Source: Gammaproteobacteria bacterium | Lineage (GTDB): Bacteria; Pseudomonadota; Gammaproteobacteria; GRL18 | Assembly: GCA_015488755.1 (NCBI GenBank) | Contig: WFNB01000023.1 | Coordinates: 1 to 64,000 of the forward strand | Length of the DNA stretch: 64,000 nucleotides | Reading direction: 5' to 3' | The notes under the pieces: model-generated | Told to the model about the DNA's origin: nothing | Databases searched by the model: none | Seen by the model: the letters and a program-made list of their open reading frames with translations, nothing else | Part shown: in pieces, positions 1 to 51,200 of the stretch | How positions within the stretch are numbered: the stretch's first letter is position 1 | Layout: every line of letters begins with the position of its first letter | Translations under genes and position numbers: made by a program

Positions 1-690
1 ATGACCAGTAAATTCCCAGATATGCCAGAGTTGGATCAAAATGATTTAGCTGAGATGCAGACCCTAAAAGAAATTGTTGATTACGTCGAAGAGAAAGCCG
101 GTGCGGTAGCTCCTATAGCGAACAATGTAAGTACAACGGCTAGCAGTGGTATTGATTCAGCTCAAATCAAGCAAGGTATGTTGGAAATCGTCAATGAGAA
201 AACCGGTTACCCAGTAGAAATGCTGGATCTCAATATGAATATGGAAGCCGATCTAGGCATTGATTCCATTAAACGAGTTGAGATCCTCGGTGCCATGACC
301 AGTAAATTCCCAGATATGCCAGAGTTGGATCAAAATGATTTAGCAGAGATGCAAACGCTAAAAGAAATTGTTAATTACGTGGAAGAAAAGGCAGGTGCAA
401 CAAGTTCTGCTGAAGTCGAGACTATTTCAGCGTCATCTGTGATTGATGAAGCATTGATTCAAAATAGTATGCTAGAAATTGTCAATGAAAAAACCGGCTA
501 TCCAGTAGAAATGCTGGACTTAACGATGGATTTAGAGGCTGATTTGGGTATTGATTCCATTAAGCGAGTTGAAATTCTCGGGGCGATGACCAGTAAGTTT
601 CCTGAATTACCAGAAATGGATCAAAATGAATTGTCCGAAATGCGTACTTTAGCAGAGATTGTTAACTATGTTAAATCATTAGTACCTCAG
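1..690 (+). repeat. Tandem ACP-domain coding repeats (period about 291-294 bp)
   Basis: ATGACCAGTAAATTCCCAGATATGCCAGAGTTGGATCAAAATGATTTAGC at 1 and 295, a diverged copy at 586; each unit carries or leads into an ACP. Confidence 0.9.
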
Positions 691-3225: not shown

Positions 3226-3238
3226 CCAAGCCTAAGAT

Positions 3239-3275
3239 ATTTATGCTCTATATTTTATTTTTATAGAGCATAAAT
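3239..3275 (+). other. Perfect 13-bp inverted repeat in the pfaA-pfaC intergenic region
   Basis: ATTTATGCTCTAT / ATAGAGCATAAAT separated by 11 nt; no strong T-tract follows. Confidence 0.6.
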
Positions 3276-3386
3276 TAATTCAATTAAATACCTCTTTAAA
3301 TTTCCTTTTCAACACAACAGTATGGTTGTCAATAGCATGAATTTGAACAATGATACTTTTTAAAAAGCGAGTGGAGACTTTTCTAA

Positions 3387-9300: not shown

Positions 9301-10853
9301 TTGATGCCCGTTTTCAGACGATGCAAAATATCCCCCAGCCTATCCGTTGTCGGGGTCAGGCATTGCCCAAAGATCGATTAATGACCTATCGTTTAGAAGT
9401 GACAGAAATTGGTCTTTCTCCTAAACCTTATGCTCGTGGTAATGTTGATATTATTATTGATGGCAAAATCGTGGTTGATTTCCGTGACGTCTGTTTAGAA
9501 CTGTCAGAAAAAAGTGCACAGGAAAAACAATTATTAGCCTCACCTCGTCAGGCAGTCACCTTAGCTACTCCTTCTCAGAAGTCTGTGCAAGCTCAAGTAA
9601 CAGCTGAGATTAAAACAGTAATGCCAAGCCTGAATAAGAAAGATACTCGTTTACCTGAACTGCCTGCCATTGAGGTAAAACCGGCATTATTTAGCGAAGC
9701 ACAGATTGTCCATTTTGCCACGGGGGATATCGAAGCCTGTTTTGGCTCTGAGTTTGCTTTGTATAAGCAACCACCACCAACACCACAAGATCCACCAAGA
9801 AGACCACCGCGTACACCGAATGGCTACTTGCAGTTAATGCATCGGGTTTTGAGTGTCGAAGGGCAGCGCCATGACTTTGATAATACCACCAAATGTGTGG
9901 CGGAATATGATGTGGCTCCTAATGTTTGGTTTTGCACAGAAAACTCTTATGAATCATTGACACCATACTCCATGTTAATGGAGATCGCCTTACAACCTAA
10001 TGGCTTTTTAACCTCTCATATCGGCAGTACTCTGATGTACCCTGATACCAATTTATATTTCCGTAATTTAGATGGCACGGGTCGTCTGATTAAAGAAATG
10101 GATCTGCGAGGCAAAACCATTGTGAATAAAACCACCATGTTTTCGACCTCTGCGGTAATGAATAATATTATTCAAAAATTTACCTTTGAGTTACTTGTTG
10201 ATGGTGAAACCTTTTATGAAGGGGACGCCGTTTTTGGTTTTTTCAGTGCCGAGTCTCTAGCCAATCAGGTCGGTATGGATAAGGGCAAGAAGTTATTGCC
10301 TTGGTATAAAGAAGAAGCAAATATTCAGGCCAAACAACTGACCTTTAATTTACGAGATGAAAGTGCTCAGAGTCTCTTTAAAGCTCCAGCAAATAAGCCT
10401 AATTACCGCTTGGCTGGCGGGGTATTTAATTTTCTTGATGAGTCTCTTGTTATTGCCGATGGTGGTAAGTTTGGTAAGGGCTATGTACACTCATTAAAAG
10501 TGATTGATGAAACCGATTGGTTCTACCCATGTCACTTCTATCAAGATCCTGTTATGCCTGGTTCTCTAGGAGTGGAAGCAATGATTCAATCCTTACAGGT
10601 CTTTGCTCTACAACAGAATTTGGCTCAGGATTTTATTAATCCTCGTTTTGGCTTGGTTGAAGGTGAAGCAAAATGGACTTATCGGGGACAAATTATTCCT
10701 GATAATGAGCAAATGACCTTAGAAGTTCATATTAAAGAGATCCGCACTCGCTCTGGGCGAGTGGATATTGTTGCTGATGGCAATTTATGGAAGGATGGCT
10801 TGCGGATTTATTCGGTAGAAACTATTGGTCTGAGCATTCAGGAGGCAAAATAA
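3387..10853 (+). CDS. pfaC: PUFA synthase PfaC-like multidomain protein: KS-CLF-AT-DH-DH
   Basis: KS active site VVLDAACASSLYS; second KS-like domain with no active-site Cys (SGPAFTISSEENSTFKALE, CLF); AT motif FGHSMGELS; two FabA-like DH modules (TSHFRDDPVLAGSLMSEG; CHFYQDPVMPGSLGVEA). Confidence 0.93.
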   Translation: MEKIAIIGTACLFPEADTPDAYWENLVANKDSRVTAQAEQMGRDPQDYFSPAKDTKDNYYCTTGGYINGFQFDAQNYSLDANTLNTLDNTFQWALHVAREALKDSGYYPSSANNQQTNNKCSDNDLSRCGVILGNLSFPTKKSNALFSPLYHQAMATPLKDLFGSADFSMGDKASNEFANGMVAGHPASIINDALNLGDVSVVLDAACASSLYSMKLACSYLQSHKADMMLAGAVSAADPWFVAMGFSTFKAFPENIASCPLDKNSSGLNTGEGAGMFVLKRYDDALRDGDTIHAVISGIGLSNDGKGKFVLSPNEAGQTVCYERAYKSTHINPEDVDYVECHATGTPLGDATEIHSMENFFANKDVHFTMGTAKSNFGHLLTSAGMAGMLKIILAMKNDLLPATVHIKEPLQSSSDKIAGDNILTQNKAWPDSTNKVAAISAFGFGGTNAHLILEEASEASTTQSSIKKKITPTTEALSIIGMGAYFGQSKDLTHFEQLIYNAQALSSPLPKNRWQGIDQDRAILEQFGIAHDDIELNGNFIDQFDFDHLYFKIPPEEQAPLLPQQLLMMKVIDEALQDAKLPKGGNIGVIVAMEMDLGIHQFRGRIDIAWQLQESLKNSHITLTVEQQAQLTDILKDSLHNAVEINQFTSFIGNIIPCRICSLWDFSGPAFTISSEENSTFKALEVAQLFLDSGDVDAMVVGAVDMAGGIEHIYLQKQRNADYAPNWRIGEGGGALVLKRQDQVLNSDRVYASIDSFSGVRFKNNQDMANSLKQAADRTLQQANITRNVIDYIELNSSAMSHHEQAEIDSLKQLYPNAIDSSEKPTQTCALGSVKANIGHTFVASGMASVIKTALCLYQRFIPGVADSDILRSTNDWDETQFYFPQASRPWLLNSQQKKRYAMINNLGQDNTAFNVIMSDTASSARAEKSKVETNRAEKKPVPNNHYLDGLDFFLVPLYADSEQALHTQLVSLSNDIQATTELNELAWGKLTDFTKYAQDARYRMSLLAHSIEELQREIQSAIKGISNAFNNNEEWSTPLGSYFTPNPQAQKGKVAFVYPGGFNSYIGMSSNLFQLFPEITDLVADSTSSLRQMMRTHYVYPQTLNAPDKKTLKQLEAQMGDDAVAMFESGIMSSILYTKVIQDLLGVQPQAAFGHSMGELSMLFSSGAWDNTDYMSNTLHSTPTFHNRLVGEMDVVRQAWDLPPSSEDEKPIWGTYTLRISPEKAAEVLAEEERVFLIIINAPNEIVIAGDDEACRRVVKKLKWRLFPVPIKDVVHNELVKAEFDALKRLHTMPTTTINGIDFYTAANYQKTELKEDVIGHNIATFYTQMVDFPKLVRQVYDDGARIFIELGPQSSCTKWVSESLKGKEHLAVGINRKGVDDHTSLLKMAAKLSSHGLSMALDKLCPKPQTLSVDDNKPSLVKPVILGKKPFAEVILSAENRVKFKPMPISTPPISTPVVHHEQKKDIPKSAPNYKTSLNTSKVVVNAQPVTTQKIGQETVGQSSIQSDVKQHHPSARIQPLMEQSMTHVISDTTANLSAKAYLIPNYQSDMLHKMIQHNIQLSQMHTEFMASRHDGLQSLSAAIINNIHSPDSHVRNNNVVHSNHSAQNSIVVLDDALSNSTKNTNSVAQEGIRQLFPSEYSQAEQIIFSEQDLREFAYGKIGNVFGSDYDSIDCYSRRVMLPMDPYLLVTRVTEMQAKKGAFVPSKMTTEYDIPHNAWYSTDGQIPTCICIESGQCDLLLISYMGIDFDNKGKYLYRLLDCTLTFLDDQPKEGQTLRYEISINSFAKHKNNLLFFFSYECFVGDKMILKMDNGCAGFFSDEELAVGKGVIRTKEEIEARAKVQKTSFTPILHCQKTSFDEKDMYYLMEGDLASCYANPDYDKKGTNPSLHFPLEKILMLDRVTSVDRTGGLWGLGLIEAEKDLSPDEWYFTSHFRDDPVLAGSLMSEGCVQLLQFFMLYLGLQTKTIDARFQTMQNIPQPIRCRGQALPKDRLMTYRLEVTEIGLSPKPYARGNVDIIIDGKIVVDFRDVCLELSEKSAQEKQLLASPRQAVTLATPSQKSVQAQVTAEIKTVMPSLNKKDTRLPELPAIEVKPALFSEAQIVHFATGDIEACFGSEFALYKQPPPTPQDPPRRPPRTPNGYLQLMHRVLSVEGQRHDFDNTTKCVAEYDVAPNVWFCTENSYESLTPYSMLMEIALQPNGFLTSHIGSTLMYPDTNLYFRNLDGTGRLIKEMDLRGKTIVNKTTMFSTSAVMNNIIQKFTFELLVDGETFYEGDAVFGFFSAESLANQVGMDKGKKLLPWYKEEANIQAKQLTFNLRDESAQSLFKAPANKPNYRLAGGVFNFLDESLVIADGGKFGKGYVHSLKVIDETDWFYPCHFYQDPVMPGSLGVEAMIQSLQVFALQQNLAQDFINPRFGLVEGEAKWTYRGQIIPDNEQMTLEVHIKEIRTRSGRVDIVADGNLWKDGLRIYSVETIGLSIQEAK

Positions 10854-10854
10854 G

Positions 10855-12408
10855 ATGTCTATACAGCAAAATCACTTAGCAATACATGGTATTGAAACAC
10901 TTCGCTCACTGGATAAGCCCTGTTATATTATTCAGGAAAATGATCGATTAGTGATTAATAATGAAGGCTGTGATGAGGTTTCTAAGATTACTGCCTATGT
11001 GCCTCCTATGATGGCTGAACAATTGGGTGATCCCTCATTTAAACAGTTTTATGGCGTTAACTATGCTTATATGACCGGTGCAATGGCCAATGGTATTTCT
11101 TCAGAAGAAATGGTGATTGCTTTAGGACAACACAATATCCTTGCTTCCTTTGGCTCTGGTGGTTTAGATTTAACACGAGTTGAATTGGCCATTAAAAAAA
11201 TACAACAGGCCTTGCCCAATGGTCCTTATGTGTTTAATTTTATTCACAACCCCTCTGAACCTGCTATCGAGCAGGGCACCATTGATTTATATCTTAAGTA
11301 TGGGGTTCATGTTATCGAAGCGGCGGCTTTTTTTAGCCTGACACCCTCACTGGTTTATTATCGTGCCAAGGGTCTGCAAAAAGATGCTCAGGGTAATATC
11401 CGTGTGCATAATAAAATTATTGCTAAAGTCTCTAGAAGGGAAGTTGCCACTGTTTTTATGCAACCCGCACCAGAAGACATTCTTAATAAATTAATCGCTC
11501 AGGGGCTGTTGACTCAGGCTGAAGCACAACTCGCTGCTCAGATACCCATGGCCGATGATGTTACGGTTGAAGCAGATTCAGGCGGTCATACGGATAACCG
11601 CCCACTGATTTCTTTATTACCCTCGGTGATCGCTCTACGTGATGACCTTCAGGCGCAATACCAGTATCCGGTAGAAATTCGTGTCGGTGCCGGTGGTGGT
11701 GTGGGGACGCCAGATGCTGCCTTAGCCTGTTATATGATGGGGGCGGCCTATGTAGTAACGGGTTCGGTGAATCAAAGCTGTGTTGAAGCCGGTGCCTCCG
11801 AACATACGCGTAAATTATTGGCTCAAGCAGGTATGGCTGATGTGGTTATGGCGCCTGCATCTGATATGTTTGAACGGGGTATTAAATTACAAGTATTAAA
11901 AAAAGGTACCTTATTTCCAATGCGGGCACAAAAGTTATATGACCTTTACACAAACTATAATAGTTTGGAGGATATTCCACCTGCTGAGTTAGAAAAACTT
12001 GAAAAGCAAATTTTACAAAATTCAGTTGCGACTATTTGGCAGCAAACCGTTGAGTTTTTCCAAAAGCGTGATCCCTCTATTATTGAAAAAGCACAAAATA
12101 ATCCTAAAAAGAAAATGGCCTTGGTTTTTCGCTGGTATTTAGGTTTGTCTTCACGATGGTCAAATGCGGGTGTTGCAGGACGGGAATTTGATTATCAGAT
12201 ATGGAGTGGCCCAGCAATGGGGGCTTTTAATGACTGGGTTGCTTCGACTTATCTTAATGATTATAAAAAACGCCATGTGGTCGATATTGCTGAGCATCTG
12301 ATGTATGGTGCAGCTTATCAACACCGAATTCAAGTGTTAAAAAGTCAGGGCTTGTATTTGCCTGCTCAATATCAGCGCTATATTCCACAGACATCCTTAG
12401 TGACTTAA
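10855..12408 (+). CDS. pfaD: PUFA synthase PfaD enoyl reductase (FMN-dependent)
   Basis: Directly follows pfaC; PfaD-type motifs such as ADSGGHTDNRPLISLLPSVIALRD, RVGAGGGVGTPDAALACYMMGAAYVVTGSVNQSCVEAG and the C-terminal GPAMGAFNDWV. Confidence 0.93.
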   Translation: MSIQQNHLAIHGIETLRSLDKPCYIIQENDRLVINNEGCDEVSKITAYVPPMMAEQLGDPSFKQFYGVNYAYMTGAMANGISSEEMVIALGQHNILASFGSGGLDLTRVELAIKKIQQALPNGPYVFNFIHNPSEPAIEQGTIDLYLKYGVHVIEAAAFFSLTPSLVYYRAKGLQKDAQGNIRVHNKIIAKVSRREVATVFMQPAPEDILNKLIAQGLLTQAEAQLAAQIPMADDVTVEADSGGHTDNRPLISLLPSVIALRDDLQAQYQYPVEIRVGAGGGVGTPDAALACYMMGAAYVVTGSVNQSCVEAGASEHTRKLLAQAGMADVVMAPASDMFERGIKLQVLKKGTLFPMRAQKLYDLYTNYNSLEDIPPAELEKLEKQILQNSVATIWQQTVEFFQKRDPSIIEKAQNNPKKKMALVFRWYLGLSSRWSNAGVAGREFDYQIWSGPAMGAFNDWVASTYLNDYKKRHVVDIAEHLMYGAAYQHRIQVLKSQGLYLPAQYQRYIPQTSLVT

Positions 12409-38266: not shown

Positions 38267-38956
38267 ATGAACCATAATCTTAGCGATAAAAAGCCAATAC
38301 AACAGACAGATAAACAGACGAATAATGAAGTCTCAATGAGTATCAATGGTCAGGCCATTACTGCTCCAGATTCATTGTCTGTTATACAAGCTTTATGGCA
38401 TGCAGGTTATCCGCGTGTTAAAGGTGTGGGTTGTCTTGATGGTGTGTGTGGTTCTTGTCGGGTTATGGTTCGTCGTTCAGGCTCACCAGAAATAAAAATG
38501 GAGTTGGGATGCCAACTTCTTATTGAAGAAGATATGGATGTCTTTTTCTCTGTCTTTGATACGCCGTCTCAACATCACTATGATTTATCTAAGATAAGCA
38601 CCTCTTGGGATGTGCAGACTGAATTTCATAAGATTTTTTCAGAGGCTCAAAAGTGTCGTCATTGTGGCGGTTGTAATAAAGCTTGCCCCAAAGGCATTGA
38701 TGTTGAAGAGGGCGTGGCGCTCGCGGTTAAGGGGCGTTTTCGTGAATCGGGTGAATTATTTGTTGATTGTGTGATGTGTAACTTATGCATGACCGGTTGT
38801 CCAGAATATATTGATCCCAATCATGTTGGTTTATTTGCCCGTCGGGTAACCGGCTATTTTCATACTCGTCCTTCCAACCTTATCAATCAACTTGAAGCCA
38901 TTCGTACGGGTGAGCTTGATGTGGATACTCATTCTGGGATGGAGGAATCACTATGA
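38267..38956 (+). CDS. Succinate dehydrogenase/fumarate reductase-like iron-sulfur subunit with two CxxCxxCxxxCP motifs
   Basis: N-terminal [2Fe-2S] motif CLDGVCGSCRVMV...ELGC; CRHCGGCNKACPKGID and CVMCNLCMTGCPEYIDP; ATGA overlap with the next gene. Confidence 0.85.
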   Translation: MNHNLSDKKPIQQTDKQTNNEVSMSINGQAITAPDSLSVIQALWHAGYPRVKGVGCLDGVCGSCRVMVRRSGSPEIKMELGCQLLIEEDMDVFFSVFDTPSQHHYDLSKISTSWDVQTEFHKIFSEAQKCRHCGGCNKACPKGIDVEEGVALAVKGRFRESGELFVDCVMCNLCMTGCPEYIDPNHVGLFARRVTGYFHTRPSNLINQLEAIRTGELDVDTHSGMEESL

Positions 38957-40611
38957 ATCATATCAATAATAGTGTGTCCTATCATCAGGCCTTAGATAAT
39001 TATTTACTAAAACAAAATACAGATGAAGGTTTTGAAGCGGTTAAACTCTCCATAGATGAGCATGAACTGCTCAGTAAATTTCACCCTGATCACCGTGAAG
39101 AAACGATGACCAGACTGCAAGTCGGACCCAATCAAGGTGATCGTTGCCATCAGCAAATTGCCGATGTGTTACAAGCCGACTCTCGTATTGATGCTGCGGA
39201 TTTGGCAGGAGCACAAATTAAAGAAACCGATGTGCTGGTGATTGGTGGGGGTGGTGCTGGCTGTGCCGCAGCATTGATTGCTGCTGAATCTGGGGCAAAT
39301 GTTATTTTAGCCACTAAATTGCGTTTGGGTGATAGCAATACCGTGATGGCGGAGGGCGGTATACAAGCATCCATTGAAAAGGGTGATAGTCCGCAGGCAC
39401 ACTATAATGATACCTTTAAAGCAGGGCATAAGAGAGGCAATAAAGAGCTCATAAAAAATTTAGTTATGGATGGCCCCGATACGATACGTTGGTTAATTCA
39501 ACAGGGTATGCAATTTGATCTCAATCGCTTTGGCGATCTCCTAACCCGTAAAGCCGGTGGCACATCAGCTAATCGAGTGGTCTATTTTCGAGATTATACG
39601 GGTCTGGAAATGATGCGTGTGTTACGTGAAGCTGTTAGTAATAGCGATATTGATGTCTGGGATTATAGCCCCGCGGTGGAGTTATTAAGCAATGAATCAG
39701 GGCATTGTGCGGGAGCAATTGTTTCATCACTACATGATTGCCGCTATGTACAAATTAAAGCCAAAACAGTGATTGTTGCCACCGGTGGTATTGGGCGGAT
39801 TCATTTGAACCAGTTTCCTACCTCAAATCACTTTGGTGCAACGGGTGATGGTCTGGTCTTGGCCTATCGTCTAGGAGCGAAACTAAGAGATTTAGACTCG
39901 TTTCAATATCACCCGACAGGGCTTGCTTATCCACAGCATCTTTCTGGTACTTTGATAACCGAAGGAGTCCGATCTTCAGGTGCCTATATGATCAATGCTC
40001 TGGGTGAGCGCTTTGTCGATGAACTCAAGCCCAGAGATATTGTTGCCGCAGCGATTATTAGAGAATGTCGTGAAGGTCGAGGGGTTGTTGGTGATAATGG
40101 CCTGCAAGGCGTTTGGTTGGATACGCCAGGTTTAGAACAACGAAATCCTGGGATCATTAAAGAACGTTTTCCTAAACTCATGCACTTGGCGCAGAAAAGT
40201 AATATTGATATTACTCGTACACCGATGTTGATTTACCCAACATTACACTATCAAAATGGTGGTGTGGTCATAGATAAAAATGGCCGCTCAACAATTGCCG
40301 GCTTATATTGTGTGGGTGAAGTCAGTGGTGGCTTGCATGGTCGTAACCGTTTAATGGGCAATGCCTTATTAGAAATTATTAGTTTTGGCCGTAGAGCCGG
40401 AGCCAGTGCCGTAAAAGATAAAAAAACACGAGGTCACAAACAGATCAGCATTGATCACATCAGCAATTTACGTCGTGAATTGATGCAAAAAGGCATGCCA
40501 ATGACCAGTAAGTCACCGGTATTATTCCCTGACTATGTACAATATGATTCAGAAGAAAATACCGCGATGAGAAAAGATACTGATTCCCATTGTGGGGTCT
40601 GTTTATCATGA
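38953..40611 (+). CDS. Fumarate reductase/succinate dehydrogenase-type flavoprotein
   Basis: VLVIGGGGAGCAAALIAAESGANV, LGDSNTVMAEGGIQASI, FQYHPTGLAYPQHLSGTLITEGVRSSGAYMINALGERF, GLYCVGEVSGGLHGRNRLMGNALLE. Confidence 0.9.
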   Translation: MNHINNSVSYHQALDNYLLKQNTDEGFEAVKLSIDEHELLSKFHPDHREETMTRLQVGPNQGDRCHQQIADVLQADSRIDAADLAGAQIKETDVLVIGGGGAGCAAALIAAESGANVILATKLRLGDSNTVMAEGGIQASIEKGDSPQAHYNDTFKAGHKRGNKELIKNLVMDGPDTIRWLIQQGMQFDLNRFGDLLTRKAGGTSANRVVYFRDYTGLEMMRVLREAVSNSDIDVWDYSPAVELLSNESGHCAGAIVSSLHDCRYVQIKAKTVIVATGGIGRIHLNQFPTSNHFGATGDGLVLAYRLGAKLRDLDSFQYHPTGLAYPQHLSGTLITEGVRSSGAYMINALGERFVDELKPRDIVAAAIIRECREGRGVVGDNGLQGVWLDTPGLEQRNPGIIKERFPKLMHLAQKSNIDITRTPMLIYPTLHYQNGGVVIDKNGRSTIAGLYCVGEVSGGLHGRNRLMGNALLEIISFGRRAGASAVKDKKTRGHKQISIDHISNLRRELMQKGMPMTSKSPVLFPDYVQYDSEENTAMRKDTDSHCGVCLS

Positions 40612-41852
40612 GTGCTGTCATGAATAATGTTCTATTACATGCAGACTCTATTGGTGATAATCTGAGTCAGTGGCTTAATGGTAATGGTGGCGATGGCTTG
40701 CAAAATGCCTTATCTGAACCGTCAAATATTATTTCAATTATTGAACAAGCAGGTTTACGGGGCTTGGGTGGCAGTGGTTTTCCTAGTTATAAAAAATGGC
40801 AATTTGTAGCTGATCAAGTAGCTAAACCAGACAAGTATCTGATTTGCAATGGCAATGAAGATGAACCGGGTACCTTTAAAGATGCTCATTTGTTATTGCA
40901 CTCACCTCATCAGGTGATTGAAGGCGCATTAATTACCGCTCTGGCAAATGGCATTAATCATATTGTTTTTTATATTAATCCAGAACAAGAACTAGCGATA
41001 GAAAAAGTCCGTATTGCGGTGGAACAATGGCAAACCAGCGACTTGTTTGCTCAAATAGAGGCTCATCTTAATAGTGCTCTGAGGATTCATGTAATGGCCA
41101 GTTCTGGGCATTATATCGGTGGTGAAGAAACCGCCGCCATTGAATCAGTTGAAGGTCATTTCCCTTTTCCTAGAGGTAAACCACCTTTCCCAGCTGTATC
41201 AGGTGTGCATGGTAGCCCCACACTGATCAACAATATTGAGACCTTGTCTAATGTGCCACATATTTTAAAAAATGGTGCCCAGTGGTATCAAGATTTAGGC
41301 TGTGGTAATTCAGCAGGCACTAAGATTTATTGCCTCAGTGGTGATGTCTTACAACCGGGTGTCTATGAGTTGCCTATGGGAACCCCTTTATCTGAGCTTA
41401 TCTATGATTTTGGTGGTGGTATGTTGCTGGAGAAGGAGATTAAAGCGGTCTTTACCGGAGGCGCTTCAAGCTCCATTTTAACACCTAAAGATTTAGATGT
41501 ACCCTTAGATTTTGACTCAGTGCATGCAAGAGGCTCTAGCTTAGGCACAGGGGCAATGATTGTTGTTTCAGAAGGGACAGGCATTGTGAAACGGGTAACA
41601 GAATATGTTAATTTTTATGCCCATTCTTCGTGTGGACAATGCCCACCATGTAAAACAGGCACTTTTTATATTTCGCAGTTGCTCAATAAAATTGATACTG
41701 GACAAGCCAGTTCTTATGATCTGGACTCTTTGATTAACCTATGTAAAATTTTACCCGGTAGTGGCCGTTGCCATTTATTAGATGGCGCTATTAAAATTGT
41801 CGATAGCTCCTTATTACATTTTGTTGATGAATATAAACATTCATTAACGTAA
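40608..41852 (+). CDS. NuoF-like NADH-binding flavoprotein (51-kDa-type) without NuoE/NuoG neighbours
   Basis: GLRGLGGSGFPSYKKWQFVA, CNGNEDEPGTFKD, YIGGEETAAIESVEG, SSCGQCPPCKTGTFYI. Start revised to 40608 (ATGA overlap with the upstream stop). Confidence 0.88.
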   Translation: MSAVMNNVLLHADSIGDNLSQWLNGNGGDGLQNALSEPSNIISIIEQAGLRGLGGSGFPSYKKWQFVADQVAKPDKYLICNGNEDEPGTFKDAHLLLHSPHQVIEGALITALANGINHIVFYINPEQELAIEKVRIAVEQWQTSDLFAQIEAHLNSALRIHVMASSGHYIGGEETAAIESVEGHFPFPRGKPPFPAVSGVHGSPTLINNIETLSNVPHILKNGAQWYQDLGCGNSAGTKIYCLSGDVLQPGVYELPMGTPLSELIYDFGGGMLLEKEIKAVFTGGASSSILTPKDLDVPLDFDSVHARGSSLGTGAMIVVSEGTGIVKRVTEYVNFYAHSSCGQCPPCKTGTFYISQLLNKIDTGQASSYDLDSLINLCKILPGSGRCHLLDGAIKIVDSSLLHFVDEYKHSLT

Positions 41853-41875: not shown

Positions 41876-43801
41876 ATGAAGCAGGACTCTGATAAGATGA
41901 ATGATCAAGTAATTAAACCGACCGAAAAGCCTCAACAAATTGCTGAGCATATTGTTGAAATTGTCAGTGATTCAGGTGAAGGAGCACAGAAATGTGGTCA
42001 AACCTTTGCTGGCATTTGCGGTAAAATGGGTAATGGTATTTGGACAGTAGAAATTATTCCTGCTGAAATTCAACCCCCAGCACGTACCCCAGCAGGTGGT
42101 AGTGGTAATCGGATCCGCATGGGTTCTAAGATTATGACTAATATGGGTGATGAAGCTGACTTAGTGGTGGGTTTTAATGAGCAGGTATTGTATGCCCGTA
42201 TTGCCAATGGCGCTTATAAAGAAGGTACCATTGTTTTATTAGAAAACAAATGGGCCAGTGACCCACAAGAAAACATTCGAGAAGAATATGCCTCTGCAGT
42301 GGCAGAATTTCGTAAAAATGGTTTAATTGTTCATGAACTGCCCCTAGAAGAAGAATGCTTAAAAATTGTCAGCAATGCCCGCAAGGGAAAAAATATGTTT
42401 GTCTTGGGTATGCTCTGTCGTATCTACAATCGTAATGCTGAACTGGGTTTAAATGAGATCCACAATACCTTTAAACACAAAGGTGATAAGATTGTTAAAC
42501 CAAATCAAGATTTATTTAATGCCGGCTATCAGTTTGCTAAAGAAAATCTTGAATATTTTTATAATATCCCAGCCTATGAAGGTGCAGAAGACGTTCTTAA
42601 AAATGTGATTATTACCAATGGCAATACATCACTTGGTTTAGGTGTTATGGCGGCCGGCATGGAAATGATTTCTATGTATCCGATTACACCAGCCACGTCA
42701 GCGTCTCATTATGTTGCGGATGTGTTTCATAATGTCGGTGGTTTTGTGCATCAGGCAGAAGATGAAATTGCTGCTATTGGCTTTGCTATTGGTGCTTCTT
42801 ATGCGGGTAAAACAGCCTGTACCATCACCTCAGGTCCGGGTATGGCTCTAAAAACAGAGATGATAGGTTTGGCTGTTATGGCCGAAATTCCATTGGTTAT
42901 TGTGGATGTACAACGTGGTGGGCCTTCAACGGGCTTACCAACTAAGGTAGAGCAATCAGACTTATTGGCATCACTTTATGGTGAACCCGGAGATGCACCT
43001 AAAATTGTGCTTGCGGCTGCAACTATTCCAGAGTGTTTTGAATTTGTTATTATGGCACGTAAATTAGCTGAAGAATTCAGAACCCCTGTTATTTTATTAA
43101 CGGATGCTAATTTAGCCACCGGTGTGCAACCTTGGATACGTCCAGAAATACAAGAAGAATGGTTTTCGGCACCGGTTGATCAATCCCCTTGGAATAAAGA
43201 CATTCCAGCTTATGATTGGGATGAAAAGACAGGCCTATCACAAAGACCCATCCCTGGTCAGCCTGATGGTATGTATGTGCTTACCGGTTTATCTCATACA
43301 GAGCGTAGTAAAGTATCCTATAACTCAGAAACCAACCAAATTACCTCAGAGCATCGTAGTCGTAAAATTGCCGCTCTGCAAAGTACCTTAAAGCCACCCA
43401 TTGTTCATGGTGTAGATTCTCAAGAAGATGAAGGCGATTTGCTGGTTGTGGCATGGGGTTCAACTATTGGTGCCATTGAAGAAGCCATTGATGTGTTAAG
43501 AGAACAGGGAAATAAAATTGCCAGCTTGCACTTACGCTTTATGTCACCATTAGAACCTGGCTTACCTGAAATTTTCAGTCGCTATAAAAAAGTAATGACC
43601 ATTGAGATCAACTATAGTGATGATCTCAATGCACCCATGATAACGAGTGAAAATAGGCGTTATGCTCAATTAGCTAATGTCTTACGGGCACAATTTGCCA
43701 TTGATATTGATTGTTGGTCGGTTGTGTATGGTCATCCCCTACAACCGGGTATGTTGATTGAAGAACTTACTAAGCGTCTTGACGCTGTTAATGTTAACTA
43801 A
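41876..43801 (+). CDS. korA: 2-oxoglutarate:ferredoxin oxidoreductase alpha subunit with fused gamma domain
   Basis: N-terminal gamma-type domain (GEGAQKCGQTFAGICGKMGNGIWTVEIIPAEIQPPARTPAGGSGNRIRMGS); YPITPATSASHYVADVFHNVGGFVHQAEDEIAAIGFAIGASYAGKTACTITSGPGMALKTEMIGLA. Confidence 0.9.
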   Translation: MKQDSDKMNDQVIKPTEKPQQIAEHIVEIVSDSGEGAQKCGQTFAGICGKMGNGIWTVEIIPAEIQPPARTPAGGSGNRIRMGSKIMTNMGDEADLVVGFNEQVLYARIANGAYKEGTIVLLENKWASDPQENIREEYASAVAEFRKNGLIVHELPLEEECLKIVSNARKGKNMFVLGMLCRIYNRNAELGLNEIHNTFKHKGDKIVKPNQDLFNAGYQFAKENLEYFYNIPAYEGAEDVLKNVIITNGNTSLGLGVMAAGMEMISMYPITPATSASHYVADVFHNVGGFVHQAEDEIAAIGFAIGASYAGKTACTITSGPGMALKTEMIGLAVMAEIPLVIVDVQRGGPSTGLPTKVEQSDLLASLYGEPGDAPKIVLAAATIPECFEFVIMARKLAEEFRTPVILLTDANLATGVQPWIRPEIQEEWFSAPVDQSPWNKDIPAYDWDEKTGLSQRPIPGQPDGMYVLTGLSHTERSKVSYNSETNQITSEHRSRKIAALQSTLKPPIVHGVDSQEDEGDLLVVAWGSTIGAIEEAIDVLREQGNKIASLHLRFMSPLEPGLPEIFSRYKKVMTIEINYSDDLNAPMITSENRRYAQLANVLRAQFAIDIDCWSVVYGHPLQPGMLIEELTKRLDAVNVN

Positions 43802-43824: not shown

Positions 43825-44781
43825 ATGTTTGGTATTAAAGCAGATTGGTCTTTAGAAGTATTTGAACGCTATTTTACCCTAGATGATTATAGTGCGGGTG
43901 GTGATGTTCGCTGGTGTTCTGGTTGTGGTGATTTTTCCATTCTAAATACCGTGCATCGTGTTCTTCGAGATGCACAAGTACCACCTGAAAAGAGTGTTGC
44001 GGTATCCGGTATTGGCTGTTCCAGTCGTATGCCCCATTATATGGGGACTTATGGCTTTCATGGTCTGCATGGTCGTGCTTTACCTATTGCTAGCGGTATT
44101 AAATCACGTCGTCCTGATTTGGATGTCTGGGTAGCCACAGGCGATGGTGACTGTTTCTCCATTGGGGCAGGACCTTGGTTACATGCTCTACATCAAAACA
44201 TGGATATGGTGGTACTGGTTTTTGATAATGGTATTTATGGTTTAACAAAAAAACAAACCTCACCTACGACTCAGCAAGGGACAAAAACCAATACTCATCC
44301 ACGAGGTTCTATTTTGCCACCATTAAACCCATTAACCATTACTTTGGGTATCACTAATGTTTCCTTTGTGGCTCAGGTTGTTGATTGGAACCCCCCTTTA
44401 TTATATGAAACAATCAAAGCAGCTCACGAACACCGAGGTCTAAGTTTTGTGCGTGTGTTACAACGCTGTCCTGTATTTTCACAAGAATTTACCAAGCCCA
44501 TGCAAGAAAACCCTGATAAATTTGTTTTATTAGAACATTCTGAAGGCATAAACATTGATGACAATGTCAAACGCTTGTTCAGTAATGTGGTTGAGCATGA
44601 TCCCAGTGATTGGTTGGGCGCAATGAAATATGCTAAGGATGAAGAGAATATGCCTCTGGGTATTTTATTTAAAGATCCGGATGCCATTGTTTATGAAGAT
44701 CATTCCAGTGTGGGTCTTGGTATGACCAATGAAGAAAAAGTCGCCGGATTAAATGCTGCCTTTGATAAGTTTTCTATTTAG
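43825..44781 (+). CDS. korB: 2-oxoglutarate:ferredoxin oxidoreductase beta subunit (TPP-binding)
   Basis: WCSGCGDFSILNTVHRVLRD, SGIGCSSRMPHYMGTYGFHGLHGRALPIASGIK, VATGDGDCFSIGAGPWLHALHQNMDMVVLVFDNGIYGLTKKQTSPTT. Confidence 0.94.
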   Translation: MFGIKADWSLEVFERYFTLDDYSAGGDVRWCSGCGDFSILNTVHRVLRDAQVPPEKSVAVSGIGCSSRMPHYMGTYGFHGLHGRALPIASGIKSRRPDLDVWVATGDGDCFSIGAGPWLHALHQNMDMVVLVFDNGIYGLTKKQTSPTTQQGTKTNTHPRGSILPPLNPLTITLGITNVSFVAQVVDWNPPLLYETIKAAHEHRGLSFVRVLQRCPVFSQEFTKPMQENPDKFVLLEHSEGINIDDNVKRLFSNVVEHDPSDWLGAMKYAKDEENMPLGILFKDPDAIVYEDHSSVGLGMTNEEKVAGLNAAFDKFSI

Positions 44782-44827
44782 CATTGATCCACAAATTAGC
44801 ACCAATACAGACTCCGTACAGAATAGC

Positions 44828-47335
44828 ATGACCATAACTATGAATACACAATCTCTGCCAACATTAGCCATAGTGAATAATGATATGGATGACTCCGCCT
44901 CGGCATTTAGTGAGTCACAGGAAATTATGCACACTTTGCGTCATTTTCACTTAGGCAATCCAGCCGCATCCAAGCAACTTGAAAGCTTAAGCGAAGATTT
45001 TTTACCTGCTTTGCTGGCAGAATATCGTGATACCTCACAATTGCGTTATGACTACCCACTGTATTTATGCCCCTGTGATGCCAGCAATAGTGTTAGTCTT
45101 TCTTTAGCAAAGCCCTTAGCAGAATTTTTGTATGAAAGAATAGCCATGTTTGCACCCAATGCAGACAGTGCTATTTTACTAAAAGATAATACTCCTTGGT
45201 TGGAACGGTACTTGCGCAATGTCACTCGAGCAATAGAAGGGCCGACTTTAATTAAGCCCTTATTGGTGAAGGCCTGCAAAAAGTTATCCGAACATTTGAA
45301 TTTTGATAGCGAGAATGCACAGCGTTTACAAGGCGATATTGAAAAATTATTAGATAATATTCCAGAAGATGGACTTATCTTGGGGTATGGGCGTTTTCCA
45401 GCATTGCATTTATTGATGCACTTGATCCGCAATCAGGCACTGCCTCAGATTTCATTGTTTAAACAAGAGATTACACAATACATCCAAAAACTACAAATTT
45501 TACTGGATGTGGATGATAGCAAACAAGCACAAGCCTCTTCTGCGGATGCTTTAAAATCGAATATCAGCTCAAATCAGTTTTTTGATACCGTTTCATTGTC
45601 TAAAGTGGTGCAGCATAGTAAAGGTTCTATTTCCCTTTCTACTTCTCAACGTCAGCGTATAGAAAATGCCTTACTGGTACTTAAAAAATTCACTGAAAAA
45701 GAAATTTTAGTACATATTGTGCATGCCAATAAAGCCTTGGATCATTCATGGTTAGATAGTAGTCAATGTTTTACCAGTGAACATCATGAAGATCCCTGCT
45801 TGAGAGCCACTGAAATCTTTGATCAAGAAGCACAGGAATTGGCAGATGTTTTTGCTGCTGCCCGTATTGCAAAACTAGAGCTTAATAACCGTTATGATGA
45901 AACGATTCATGATCCGTGGTTTAAAAGCTTTAATTGGGAAAACTTTTCTAAAGAAGAACTGATCTTAGTACCTTCTGTTATTGTCTTAGAGGCAGCTAAT
46001 CGTTTAGTCGATGAAAGCATGGTGTCATTTTCCCAGCTATTGAATTCTGGCCGTCCTGTGAATATTTTTGTGCGTGTGCAAGCGCATAATAATCCAGGAG
46101 CTAAGGCCGACGAAGACCCATTTCATAATTATCGAACCGAACTGGGCTACTTAGGCATCAGTCATCGTCAGGCAGTGGTGACACAATGCTCCGCTGCTCG
46201 TCATCAATTGTTACTATCGCATTTTGAGATGTCTTTAAATGCAACTCGTACCAGTTTGCACTTGATTAATGTCGGTCTGCGTGAAGTGGGAGAAGATTCA
46301 GGTTTGAATGCTTGGCTCGTTGCTGGTGCTGCCTTAGAAGGGCGGGCACACCCATTTTTCTCTGTTGACCCCGGTGCTGGTGATTCCGCAGCTGATCGCA
46401 TGGACTTTTCTGGCAATCCACAAGCCGATAAAGATTGGCCATCACAGCCCTTTATCTATAAAGATCAGACAGATGAAGTCAGCCAAATGGAACTGAGTTT
46501 TACCTTTGCAGATTACGCCTTATTGATCCCACGTTTAAGTTATCACTTTGCCTTAATACCCCTAGAATGTGAATCCGATGATTTAATTGCTGTTGCTGAT
46601 TATTTAGCATTGCCCGTGAATGAAGTCGATAATTTTGTGCCTTATATTTGGTCAGTGAATCAAAGCAATGAATTACGCAAAGTAGCGGTTTCTAGAGCGT
46701 TAATTCATGCCTGTCGTGATCGCTTAAATTTCTGGCACTCTTTACAGGAAATGGCGGGTATTCGTAGTCGTTACATTGAAGATGCAGAACAACGTATTCA
46801 TGCTGAGGCAGAAGAAGAGATTGCTCGTCAACTTGCGCAGATAAAAGCAGATTATGAGGCACAATTGGAGCAAGTAAAAACGGAAACAGCAGCCAATGTG
46901 ATGAGTCGTTTAACCGATATGCTCTTAGGCATGGATCTCAGTGCGACTAGCGTGTCTGTCCCTCCAATGGCTTTGAATAATACCACAGCAACAAATGATA
47001 CCGTAGTAGCCGAAACGGTGGCAGATGACTCTGAAGAAGATGCTCCAGTAGAGTCTGAGGAAGTGGTTGATGATGATACCTTTGATGAAGCATGGATTGA
47101 CTCGCCGTTGTGTACAACCTGTAATGATTGTACCAATCTTAATCCCATTATGTTTGTTTACAATGATACCAATCAGGCTATTATTGCCGATCTCAATGCT
47201 GGAACGTACAAAGATATGGTTGAAGCGGCAGAAATGTGTCCTTCTAAATGCATTCATCCGGGTAAGCCTTGGAATAAAGATGAAGCCGATTTAGATGACT
47301 TAGTTAAACGGGCAGCACCGTTTAATTCATTCTAA
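44828..47335 (+). CDS. PFOR C-terminal-half-like protein with degenerate TPP domain and C-terminal ferredoxin motif
   Basis: PFOR-domain-VI-like order (VNIFVRVQAHNNPGA...AWLVAGAALEGRAHPFFSVDPG) parallels the 1609-aa protein; shared tail FWHSLQEMAGI...EEIARQLAQIKADYEAQLEQ; C-terminal CTTCNDCTNLNP...CPSKCIHPG. Likely start at 44828 or 44843, not 44753 (inside korB). Confidence 0.75.
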   Translation: MTITMNTQSLPTLAIVNNDMDDSASAFSESQEIMHTLRHFHLGNPAASKQLESLSEDFLPALLAEYRDTSQLRYDYPLYLCPCDASNSVSLSLAKPLAEFLYERIAMFAPNADSAILLKDNTPWLERYLRNVTRAIEGPTLIKPLLVKACKKLSEHLNFDSENAQRLQGDIEKLLDNIPEDGLILGYGRFPALHLLMHLIRNQALPQISLFKQEITQYIQKLQILLDVDDSKQAQASSADALKSNISSNQFFDTVSLSKVVQHSKGSISLSTSQRQRIENALLVLKKFTEKEILVHIVHANKALDHSWLDSSQCFTSEHHEDPCLRATEIFDQEAQELADVFAAARIAKLELNNRYDETIHDPWFKSFNWENFSKEELILVPSVIVLEAANRLVDESMVSFSQLLNSGRPVNIFVRVQAHNNPGAKADEDPFHNYRTELGYLGISHRQAVVTQCSAARHQLLLSHFEMSLNATRTSLHLINVGLREVGEDSGLNAWLVAGAALEGRAHPFFSVDPGAGDSAADRMDFSGNPQADKDWPSQPFIYKDQTDEVSQMELSFTFADYALLIPRLSYHFALIPLECESDDLIAVADYLALPVNEVDNFVPYIWSVNQSNELRKVAVSRALIHACRDRLNFWHSLQEMAGIRSRYIEDAEQRIHAEAEEEIARQLAQIKADYEAQLEQVKTETAANVMSRLTDMLLGMDLSATSVSVPPMALNNTTATNDTVVAETVADDSEEDAPVESEEVVDDDTFDEAWIDSPLCTTCNDCTNLNPIMFVYNDTNQAIIADLNAGTYKDMVEAAEMCPSKCIHPGKPWNKDEADLDDLVKRAAPFNSF

Positions 47336-47349
47336 GTAATGTATTGATT

Positions 47350-48210
47350 ATGACTTTTTTAGATGTTTTTACAGCCCCCATAATCATGACCAGTTTAGGC
47401 TTACTCTTTGGCCTTATTTTGGCCGTGGCTTATCATTATTTAAAAGTAGATGAAGATCCTCGAATTTCACAAACTGAAGAGTTATTACCTGGTACCAATT
47501 GTGGTGCCTGCGGTGAACCAGGTTGTCTGCCCTTTGCCACAAAACTGGTTTCAGGAGAGGTGCCACCAAGTGGCTGTACCGTTGCCTCAGAAGATGATAT
47601 TGATAATATATCTGAATTTCTAGGTGTCGATGCCGGTGAACAGGAAAAAATTGTTGCCCGTCTTAAATGTGCCGGCGGTAAGGCACAAGCCTTTCAAATT
47701 GCAGAATATCAGGGCTTTGAAGGCTGTCGGGCGGCGGCGGTTATTTCTGGTGGTGGTAAAGGTTGCTCGTGGGGATGCTTGGGCTTAGGCGATTGCGAAG
47801 TGGCATGTACTTTTGATGTCATTCACATGAATGACAATGGCTTGCCCGTTGTTGATGCTGCCAATTGCACTGCCTGTTCAGATTGTGTGGATATTTGCCC
47901 CAAGAATTTATTTGAACTACGTCCTGTTGCCGAACAATTGTATGTACAATGTAATATCCCTCTTGAAGGGGATACAGTCACTGCCCTATGTAGTGCCGGT
48001 TGTGATGCCTGTGGCAAGTGTGTAGCGGATGCTCCTGCTGGATTGATAAGTATGCATAATGAGTTGCCAGTGGTAGATTATACTTCAGGGCTTTTCAATA
48101 CTGATAAATTAACCAAAAAAGCCATTGAGCGTTGCCCAACTCAGGCGATTCAGTGGTTAGAATTGAATCAATTTAATGAACAGGCTGATGAGCAAGAGCG
48201 TTATTCTTAG
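47350..48210 (+). CDS. rnfB: Rnf electron transport complex subunit B
   Basis: N-terminal TM, GTNCGACGEPGCLPFATKLVSGEVPPSGC, CSWGCLGLGDCEVACTFDVIHM, CTACSDCVDICPKNLF, CDACGKCVADAP. Confidence 0.93.
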   Translation: MTFLDVFTAPIIMTSLGLLFGLILAVAYHYLKVDEDPRISQTEELLPGTNCGACGEPGCLPFATKLVSGEVPPSGCTVASEDDIDNISEFLGVDAGEQEKIVARLKCAGGKAQAFQIAEYQGFEGCRAAAVISGGGKGCSWGCLGLGDCEVACTFDVIHMNDNGLPVVDAANCTACSDCVDICPKNLFELRPVAEQLYVQCNIPLEGDTVTALCSAGCDACGKCVADAPAGLISMHNELPVVDYTSGLFNTDKLTKKAIERCPTQAIQWLELNQFNEQADEQERYS

Positions 48211-48288: not shown

Positions 48289-51200
48289 ATGTTAAATCTT
48301 ACTGCAAATCTTACTGAAACAGCGATTCGTCTCTATCGTCAATTATTTGGCTCGCCCGAACGGATTGGACAGCTTGCTGATGGTGTTGATACAGTGTTAG
48401 ATGGCCGTACAGCAGTTGCCATAACAGAAGCGTGTTTTAGCGAAGTATTAAGCTTTGGTGGCGAATTTTTAACGCAGACTTCTGTCTTGGCTTGGCTATC
48501 TGAGCAAGAGCGTGTGACGAGCAATCTCTTTAATGATGCGTTGAGCGTGCAAAAGGCAGATTCTCCAAGAGGTGCTCTGGCATCAGCGATAGGGGTGAGT
48601 TTATCTGGGCATCGTAGCAGTATTTTTTTAACTGCTCAGGATATTCTTAGCACTCAGGATCTTCTGCAAAGTGCTGTTGCTCGCCATGTGCCCTTAGTGA
48701 TCCACCTTGATAATACACTTTGTGCTCAGCATTCAAGTAGTATGCATAGTGGTCATGAGGCGCTACAACAGGCGATGGATAGTGGCTGTCTGGTCTTATT
48801 TGCTGCTAATGTTCAAGAAGCGGTTGATTTTACCTTAATTGCTCGTCATGTTGCTGAATTAAGTTTGACGCCTGCTTTAGTGGTTATGGATGGTGCAGAA
48901 ACCGCTTGGTCTGCACAAGATGTTCGCCTGCCTTCTGCTGAGCTTATTAGACAATTTATTGCTCGTGCAGATGAGTTAATTGAGTTACCCAACACGGTAC
49001 AAAAACAATTATTTTCTTATCGTGCGGCTGATAAGGATGTCACGATAGAACAACGACCACGAGTCCCCAAGTGGCACGATTTGGATAGACCGGTATTACA
49101 AGGTGCCATGCAGGATGCCAAAATTTTTGCTTTAGGACATGCGGCTAAACGTGTTTACTTTGATGATTTTGTTCGTTCGGTATTAGAACAAGCCTTTGCT
49201 GACTATGCGCAACTCACAGCTCGGCAATATGCCTCGGTGTCAAATTATGATGTCAATATAGGTACTAAAAAAAGTGCTAAGAAAGAGACGCTAAAAAAAG
49301 CAGATATTATTTTTGTTGCTCAGGGCAGTGCCATTGAAACACTCAATGCCTGTCGTTTGTATTTGCAAAAATTAACTAAAAAAAATACCTCAAACATTAG
49401 TAAAGTAAACATTGGTATTATTGCTTTACATAGTTTACGACCTATTAATACGGAGTTGTTGGGTGATTTATTAAGTTGCAATCCAAATTTGACTCAGCCT
49501 GTTATTGTCTTAGAACGCATGACGTCAGCCTTGGCGGATGATGCTCCTTTAATACGTGAACTGCGAGCAATCTTAGCCCGTTATGCCGAGAACAAACAGT
49601 TGACGAAAGTACCACAACTGCGGTCGATTATTTATGGTCTAGGGGGTAGTGAATTAAATATTGCCGATATATGGGCACTCTTAGATGAGCTTAGTAGCAA
49701 TCAGTCGCAGAGAAAGGGACAGTATTTAGGCATTCCATTTATTTCTTATGATGTTAACAATGCTCGCAGTAAAACCAAGGAGTATCACCCTAAGCGTCAG
49801 GTTATGCTGGATACTTTGGAGCGTTATTATCCTCATATTAGTCAACTGGGTATTAATGCCAAAGGCAAACAATACGCACTTTATTCACCACAAACAGCTG
49901 CTCTTGGTTTTGCTATTAGCTCTCTTGCTAATGATGATGCGCCTATTTCTTATGCTATGGATCTTGGTGCTTATTTATACCAACTTAAGCAGGGAAGCAT
50001 CCGCAGTCTTATTGCCTCATCATGGTCACAATATGCTACTCGACAAATAGATTTTATCAGCCATGCTCAAAATGCCTATGCGGTAGGCCACGCCAGTCCA
50101 GTTAATTTTTTCTTACTCTTATCAGCCGATGCCCAAAGTTTGCTGACGGCCTGTCAGAGCTTGGATGAGCAGGGTGTGTTAATTATCAGTGGCAATGATT
50201 TCAGTCGTTTTTCTGGCGAGGCAAAAACAAAAGCGAAGCTGCTTGAATCCCTAAGCATAATCAAGGATAAAGGCTTAACAATTTATCACCTCAATGAAAG
50301 TAAAGAAGATGATACGATTGAGCATCAATTAAGCCCCACCTTAGTTTGGGAAAAAATGCTTGCTCTATTAGTGGCCAGCCTCAGTCAGAAGGAACAGCTT
50401 AATTTAAAAACTCGTAAGATTGTCAGTCTAAGAGAAACCATGCATCATGACCGTGCTATTGAGCAATATGAGGCACAAGAGGTGTTTAAGTCAACTCTTA
50501 GCTTAGTGATGGATAAGTTAACAGCTTATAATATAGATGCAGTTATTCACAAAGCATTAGAAAATAGTGTGCTCTTTGATAATGAGCAGGCATTTGATAT
50601 ACCCGAAATGGTGAAGCACTTTGGGCAGACTAACCAATCTTATGATAGTTTGCCACGTTTTTGGGATCAAGTGGGCGTGTTGCAACAGCAGGGTGATATG
50701 GAGCAATTAACAGCCGATCCCTATTTAGCAACCGGTACCATGCCTTCGCTCAGTGCGACCTTTCATAGCATTAATACCGATCATAGTGCTAGAGGCTTGC
50801 CTCTATTTCAGGCAAATTCATGCACAGCCTGTGGTGAGTGTTGGTCAAACTGTCCAGAAAGTGCTATTGCTACGCTTGCTATTCATCCTAAAGCCTTGTT
50901 GGAAACCGGTATTAAAATAGCCCAAGCCGATGCCCTGCGTGCGGTGTCCTCTAAACTGGCTGCTCAAATTGCTAAAGAGTGTCGTAATGCAATTCGTAGC
51001 GATGATTTTAGCGTAAATAATAGTGCCGATTTATTAACGACCGCTTTTACTGCCTTTAAAGAAAAAGCCAATATGCCTCAAGAGCGTATGCAGAATATTG
51101 AGCAGGACTTTATTAAAACCCGTGATGCTCTTGCTGATTTGCCTATTGTTGCCAGTGATATTTTATTTACACAGCCAGAAGCCAAGCAAAACGATAGTGG

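Follow-up and report, generated by a model that had tools for sequence, protein, structure and literature searches.

How low-potential electrons are supplied for 2-oxoacid synthesis in microbes with relatively oxidizing electron donors is an open question. The operon described here joins a putative 2-oxoglutarate synthase (KorAB) to an ion-driven electron pump (Rnf) via two dead enzymes, whose retained cluster motifs and ferredoxin suggest a dedicated wire. What, then, are two proteins that have lost their catalytic centers doing in this position?

The operon lies in a 64,000-nucleotide stretch of gammaproteobacterial DNA (hereafter the window). A first-pass annotation had described one of its genes as a half-PFOR protein with a degraded TPP domain and an appended ferredoxin, and as a pseudoenzyme partner of a 1609-aa protein encoded nearby. 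We refer to these two proteins as P835 and P1609. The features of the locus are as follows.

38267..41852, + strand: genes resembling tfrB, tfrA and nuoF (a putative fumarate reductase linked to NADH); their position upstream of korA is conserved among relatives
41876..43801, + strand: korA, catalytic 2-oxoacid:ferredoxin oxidoreductase alpha(-gamma) subunit (TIGR03710 over cut-off; EDEIA glutamate intact)
43825..44781, + strand: korB, catalytic beta subunit (GDGD...N and four cluster Cys, 31, 34, 65 and 215, intact)
44828..47335, + strand: P835, 835 aa, a degenerate C-terminal half of PFORfd with a ferredoxin (open frame; hhalign; 24 orthologs aligned at catalytic sites)
44930..45382, + strand: PFOR domain V remnant in P835, residues ~35-185, both Fer4 motifs lost (hhalign to PFORfd 756-1015, around its two Fer4 motifs)
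45968..46123, + strand: pseudo TPP site of P835, residues 381-432, with the Asn but without GDG (aligned to NifJ, PFORfd and P1609)
46763..46927, + strand: 54-residue coiled-coil-like linker of P835, residues ~646-700 (segment lengths; long helix at 648-700 in the AF2 model)
47093..47263, + strand: C-terminal [4Fe-4S]-type ferredoxin domain of P835 (C762, C765, C768, C804; extra C808) (Fer4_13; Foldseek 1fxr; Cys kept in 23/24)
47344..48210, + strand: rnfB-type polyferredoxin subunit (TIGR01944 over cut-off)
48289..53118, + strand: P1609, a full-length pseudo-PFOR without ferredoxin (site counts and alignments)
50821..50853, + strand: P1609 Fer4 motif a, CTACGECWSNC (Cys conserved 17/17)
51235..51267, + strand: P1609 Fer4 motif b, CKACGLCVELC (Cys conserved 17/17)
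53159..57572, + strand: rnfC, rnfD, rnfG, rnfE and rnfA (order same as in contig C38, described below, and all relatives)

Genomic context of the operon

The catalytic motifs of KorA and KorB are retained, and therefore the chemistry of the operon belongs to KorAB. P835 sits between korB and rnfB, as had been claimed, and the order korA-korB-P835-rnfB-P1609-rnfC-D-G-E-A is kept in every locus long enough to show it. The korA-korB pair lies directly 5' of P835 wherever the contig permits, and tfrB-tfrA-nuoF is often found upstream of korA. These loci come from the genus and family of the window and from families f35, f102, f125, f134, f141 and f161; family f119 has a divergent version. Symbionts of two lucinid clams, Bathyaustriella and Lucinoma, are among the named records, as is a MAG labelled Sedimenticola thiotaurini. 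Full-length P835 and full-length P1609 occur in exactly the same 11 of the 369 gammaproteobacterial genomes (7 families).

Some relatives (L054, L063, L119, L120 and L121), though not all, carry sucC-sucD between P1609 and rnfC. These genes were identified by eye from translations as the content of a 2.1 kb gap, and the candidate explanation of this gap as an unknown extra component was rejected on that reading. SucCD, TfrAB and KorAB together complete the path fumarate-succinate-succinyl-CoA-2-oxoglutarate, from which we infer that the substrate of KorAB is 2-oxoglutarate. Operons with sucC-sucD represent a near-complete reductive TCA branch.

No 2-oxoglutarate dehydrogenase E1 was found in the genome of the window with a family that does match in control genomes, and the genome has RuBisCO. 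A search for the ATP-citrate lyase family was uninformative, as the family had no match in any control genome.

P835 derives from a PFOR that carries its own ferredoxin

The frame that encodes P835 is open from 44753 to 47335 and yields 835 aa from the ATG at 44828 and 860 aa only from an upstream ATG at 44753. Because orthologs align from residue 1-2 of the shorter form, we took the length to be 835 aa. The first-pass annotation was therefore wrong in assigning 860 aa to 44828-47335, which encodes 835 aa, whereas the sequence segments it quoted are all present in this frame.

Pfam finds only the C-terminal ferredoxin in P835 and NCBIfam finds nothing meaningful, so most of the protein is invisible to both libraries. 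PDB sequence searches with P835, either as a single sequence or as a profile, returned ferredoxins as the only credible matches and no PFOR. Its relationship to P1609 can be detected by BLASTP (8e-15, residues 327-702), and a far stronger match (7e-45) is to a protein encoded on another contig (C38) of the same genome. This protein, of 1652 aa, is a complete PFOR that ends in a ferredoxin and has intact catalytic motifs (PFORfd). It matches TIGR02176 at E 1.5e-114, yet falls under the equivalog cut-off.

Profile comparison by hhalign places residues 35-824 of P835 against residues 756-1649 of PFORfd over 739 columns (probability 100, E 2.7e-78), and gives a weaker match between the P835 and P1609 profiles (E 2.9e-16). 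The long alignment with PFORfd indicates that P835 is the whole back half of such a protein, comprising what remains of domain V (both Fer4 motifs are missing), followed by domain VI and the ferredoxin. Within domain VI, P835 is 30% identical to Rnf-linked PFORfd versus 15% to classical PFOR. The kinship with PFOR that had been proposed thus held and can be refined: the nearest relative of P835 is a PFOR of ~1650 aa with its own C-terminal ferredoxin, not an ordinary PFOR. Linking P835 to PFOR required either PFORfd as an intermediate or structure prediction.

A lack of structural similarity to PFOR would have refuted the original reading. A first AF2 model, built from P835 orthologs alone, had a pLDDT of 56 and gave no significant result in a fold search. 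After the C-terminal halves of P1609 were added, the model (no templates) reached a mean pLDDT of 67 and a moderate pTM of 0.49. Foldseek against the PDB then returned Moorella PFOR as the top match (E 1.5e-4, prob 1.00), with oxalate oxidoreductase beta, PorB and OorB ranking next, and the refutation did not occur. The TM-scores are modest, and therefore this analysis supports the fold of P835 but not its details. Both the profile alignment and the fold search place P835 within the common fold and ancestry of PFOR domain VI.

Loss of the catalytic center and retention of the ferredoxin

Alignment of the segment VPSVIVLEAANRLVDESMVSFSQLLNSGRPVNIFVRVQAHNNPGA of P835 with CPPVVSVGGDGAMYDIGFQNLSRMMMSGIPIKVMIVDTQVYSNTGGQ of PFOR shows that GDG is gone from the position of the TPP motif, as had been noted; the Asn of GDG...N, however, is retained. 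A second segment, GLNAWLVAGAALEGRAHPFFSVDPG, aligns with PFOR ...FAVESRAYPLFKFDPDQG, which bears out the claim that it parallels the PFOR C-terminal region. Among the 24 P835 orthologs, GDG, the set of proximal-cluster Cys and both Fer4 motifs are gone (two rows hold one stray Cys), and the Asn is retained in 22. Domain I, with the TPP-activating Glu, is absent from P835. Three features expected of a PFOR, namely the TPP motif GDG...N, the domain I Glu and the four proximal [4Fe-4S] Cys, are thus all unmet. The original reading would also have been refuted by a functional TPP site elsewhere in P835; none was found, and the region upstream of domain VI aligns throughout with domain V remnants, with no domain I.

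The C-terminal ferredoxin that had been claimed is present (Pfam Fer4_13, E 1.1e-7, 32.9 bits versus a cut-off of 24.5), and it also matches D. africanus ferredoxin I (E 4e-5). Its motif is CTTCNDC...CPSKC, which corrects the earlier CPxxxC to CPxxC. The ferredoxin Cys are retained in 23 of the 24 orthologs, the exception being a row split by a frameshift. No match to KorD or PorD models was obtained at E up to 1. By its CxxCxxC...C ligands and Fer4_13 score, the domain qualifies as a single-cluster [4Fe-4S] ferredoxin, for which a bound cluster and a low potential are inferred. P835 is therefore a PFORfd-derived pseudoenzyme half that has lost its catalytic center and kept its ferredoxin, although its cluster content is an inference.

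P1609 is a second pseudoenzyme with complementary losses

Site counts were made over 61 aligned sequences, including PFORfd, P1609 and P835. The TPP Glu, the Asn and all four proximal-cluster Cys are lost in every one of 17 P1609 sequences, all eight Fer4 (dicluster) Cys are present in the same 17, and the C-terminus lacks a ferredoxin. PFORfd, by comparison, retains the TPP Glu, GDG, Asn, four proximal Cys, eight Fer4 Cys and the first three ferredoxin Cys in 18/18, and the fourth ferredoxin Cys in 17/18 (one row is cut off). These complementary losses and retentions indicate that P835 and P1609 retain complementary parts of one ancestor. P1609 is itself a pseudoenzyme, a point that the first-pass annotation had omitted; that the genome also carries an intact enzyme, in a different Rnf operon, could not have been known from the window.

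Might the two proteins jointly make up a single active PFOR-type site? The pair does hold equivalents of all PFOR domains, and the Mg-ligand Asn is present in 22/24 P835 sequences. However, 17/17 P1609 sequences have lost the TPP Glu, P835 has lost GDG, and neither protein has the four proximal Cys, which all but excludes this possibility. On the same site counts we also rejected a working TPP site in any other part of the two proteins.

The intact PFORfd belongs to a second Rnf operon, rnfB-PFORfd-rnfC-D-G-E-A-ppdK, with an adjoining divergent lysR (G000, contig C38; L047, 978-15186). The slot between rnfB and rnfC is thus occupied by intact PFORfd in this sister operon and by P1609 in the Kor-Rnf operon. 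We infer that the C38 operon probably encodes an Rnf-linked pyruvate oxidoreductase.

Rnf-linked PFORfd operons of this type occur in about 20 of the 369 genomes of the class and also in Bacteroidota (L066). A divergent PFORfd-like protein (35% identity) is encoded in another class of the phylum (L128, G402 C27, 5059-10110), with no Rnf genes in the fetched stretch. The P1609 orthologs of family f102 (L120-L122) are only 1143-1292 aa long and miss a stretch around the PFOR domain III region, which suggests that this region is perhaps dispensable there.

Selection, ancestry and a matched coil segment

The dN/dS ratio is ~0.09 for P835 and 0.12-0.15 for P1609, with many pairs saturated at synonymous sites. 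Values near 0.1 argue that neither protein is decaying. An obvious alternative is that both genes are decaying pseudogenes of a redundant PFOR copy. In its favor, catalytic residues have been lost, and in one genome (G057) the sequences of P835 and korA are broken into several frames (L119, contig C1, 8149-13542); this is a one-contig genome, and the split reflects either sequencing error or real decay. Against it, the frames are full-length in no fewer than 7 families, dN/dS is 0.09-0.15, and the Fd and Fer4 Cys are retained nearly without exception. Decay is thereby all but ruled out.

In a tree of domain VI, P835 (24 rows) and P1609 (18 rows, the divergent f119 form among them) each form one group with support of 100/99, and both groups adjoin PFORfd. 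Their exact attachment is unsure because the branches are long. A plasmid of Gemmatirosa kalamazoonensis carries korA-korB-rnfB-PFORfd-rnfC with the catalytic motifs of PFORfd intact, an arrangement that we infer to be the likely ancestral state before duplication.

A coiled-coil-like segment between domain VI and the protein end is exactly 54 residues long in 17/17 P1609 and 23/24 P835 sequences. It spans 52 residues in the Gemmatirosa PFORfd and 23-38 in the other PFORfd compared (23-29 in the gammaproteobacterial Rnf-PFORfd among them). Furthermore, hydrophobic positions line up between the P835 and P1609 segments (r = 0.56 at lag 0). These matched segments fit a parallel P835-P1609 heterodimer, but common ancestry would give the same result. 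The proposal that P835 is a pseudoenzyme partner of P1609 is thus supported by co-occurrence in 11/11 genomes, by location in the same operon where contigs allow, and by the 54-residue coils; direct contact remains an inference.

A proposed electron-wiring module and its rivals

The homology, the losses and retentions, the conserved order, the co-occurrence and the purifying selection are established by these data. The explanation that we find best, and hold with moderate confidence, is that P835 and P1609 connect KorAB with Rnf as a dedicated module for electron wiring and docking, in which contact, docking, cluster binding and electron path are all inferred. KorAB (2-oxoglutarate/succinyl-CoA) would supply the TPP chemistry, and the two pseudoenzymes would rebuild the non-catalytic parts of an Rnf-linked PFORfd, that is, its scaffold and electron relay. 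P1609, taking the position that PFORfd has in the sister operon, would dock at RnfB/RnfC and form a heterodimer with P835. Electrons would then move, in either direction, along a route from the KorB cluster through the ferredoxin of P835 and the diclusters of P1609 to RnfB/RnfC. NADH and the ion gradient could drive 2-oxoglutarate synthesis, or the reverse could occur. We lean modestly toward the synthesis direction because genes of the reductive branch are present, and this is a judgement.

Several points weigh against the wiring module. There is no direct evidence for complex formation, bound clusters or electron transfer, all of which are inferred from sequence alone, and the tie of P835 to the Rnf complex rests on operon linkage only. 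A free ferredoxin could do the same job without the ~600 aa of dead domain that P835 carries, and therefore a structural or regulatory function is possible. Both the coil register and the co-occurrence may reflect only common ancestry and operon inheritance.

One rival holds that P835 is a dedicated ferredoxin subunit of KorAB (a giant analogue of KorD/OorD) with no special link to Rnf or P1609, and that Rnf is nearby by operon inheritance only. Consistent with this view, korB is always directly upstream of P835. Moreover, one genome (G235, 100% complete) has korAB and a P835 relative without P1609 and without an RnfC match at E 1e-10. Its gene order is two genes matching PRK06222 and TIGR01316, then korA-korB, and then the P835 relative, which carries three near-identical ferredoxin repeats (L125, 1805-10067). 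However, the other 11 genomes have P835 and P1609 together without exception, flanking rnfB, and the coil lengths of the two proteins are equal. We therefore regard this rival as unlikely. From their matches, the two upstream genes in G235 probably have the composition expected for an NAD(P)H:ferredoxin enzyme of the Nfn type. The constant theme would then be KorAB, P835 and some NAD(P)H:ferredoxin enzyme, which favors electron delivery over a structural role within Rnf alone.

A second rival is that P835 and P1609 are a regulatory or assembly pair, in which the pocket binds CoA, a 2-oxoacid or a nucleotide and gates KorAB or aids the maturation of Rnf, with the clusters acting as sensors, for example of oxygen. 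The remodelled pseudo-site has acquired new residues (LLNSGRPV, RVQAHNNPG, GISHRQAV) and shows strong conservation, beyond what a passive scaffold would need. Nevertheless, the separate cluster motifs are conserved and positioned as in an electron wire, and P1609 is placed in the rnfB-rnfC slot that the electron-transferring PFORfd occupies in the sister operon. We consider this rival very improbable.

A bolder version of the wiring module, which we offer tentatively and with some doubt, is an Rnf-Kor supercomplex in sulfur-oxidizing Gammaproteobacteria that has not been described before. Here the complementary pseudo-PFOR pair, descended from a PFOR docked at Rnf, would channel electrons directly between the ion pump and KorAB, and succinyl-CoA carboxylation would be driven by NADH and the ion gradient with no freely diffusing ferredoxin.

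Relation to known systems

P835 resembles PFOR/NifJ (Moorella 6CIN-6CIQ; D. africanus 1B0P) in the fold and alignment of domain VI, but lacks domains I-IV, GDG and the ligands of the proximal, medial and distal clusters. It has a C-terminal ferredoxin, whereas E. coli NifJ has none. The PFORfd proteins of the C38 operon, Persicobacter and Gemmatirosa are homologous to P835 over the 739 columns, including the ferredoxin, and share its rnf neighborhood. Unlike these proteins, in which catalytic residues and cluster ligands are kept in 18/18, P835 is half-length and adjoins korAB. With KorAB and OorDABC (a Foldseek match, 8ys5_C), P835 has the KorB-like fold in common. OorD is a ferredoxin subunit encoded with its enzyme; it is a small ferredoxin, whereas P835 is a dead PFOR half bearing a ferredoxin in an Rnf operon.

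In the Riftia symbiont, a "PFOR-like" gene and dimeric korAB(3) drop together under sulfide limitation (PMC11636981), and KorABCD, Hdr-Flx and Rnf cluster in tubeworm symbionts and Thioflavicoccus (PMC6315080). As here, electron-transfer complexes are clustered with Kor and fumarate reductase genes in these systems. The relevant passages of both papers mention neither a pseudoenzyme nor the kor-P835-rnfB-P1609 order, and we do not equate the Riftia gene with P1609. We found no description of the P835/P1609 pair in the open-access literature searched, which does not prove its absence.

NuoG of complex I is a relic of a catalytic enzyme kept as an Fe-S electron wire. By analogy, the theme of a relic serving as a wire is the same, although the fold of NuoG, a molybdopterin enzyme, is unrelated. 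If the wiring module is real, a TPP enzyme has been converted to an electron conduit, much as a molybdenum enzyme gave rise to NuoG, and such a wire could shield low-potential electrons from oxygen. It would also call for caution wherever the 1609-aa protein is automatically annotated as an active pyruvate oxidoreductase.

Elsewhere in the window, positions 1-12408 hold large multifunctional open reading frames with repeated acyl-carrier-like and ketosynthase-like segments, resembling a polyunsaturated fatty acid (pfa) synthase cluster.
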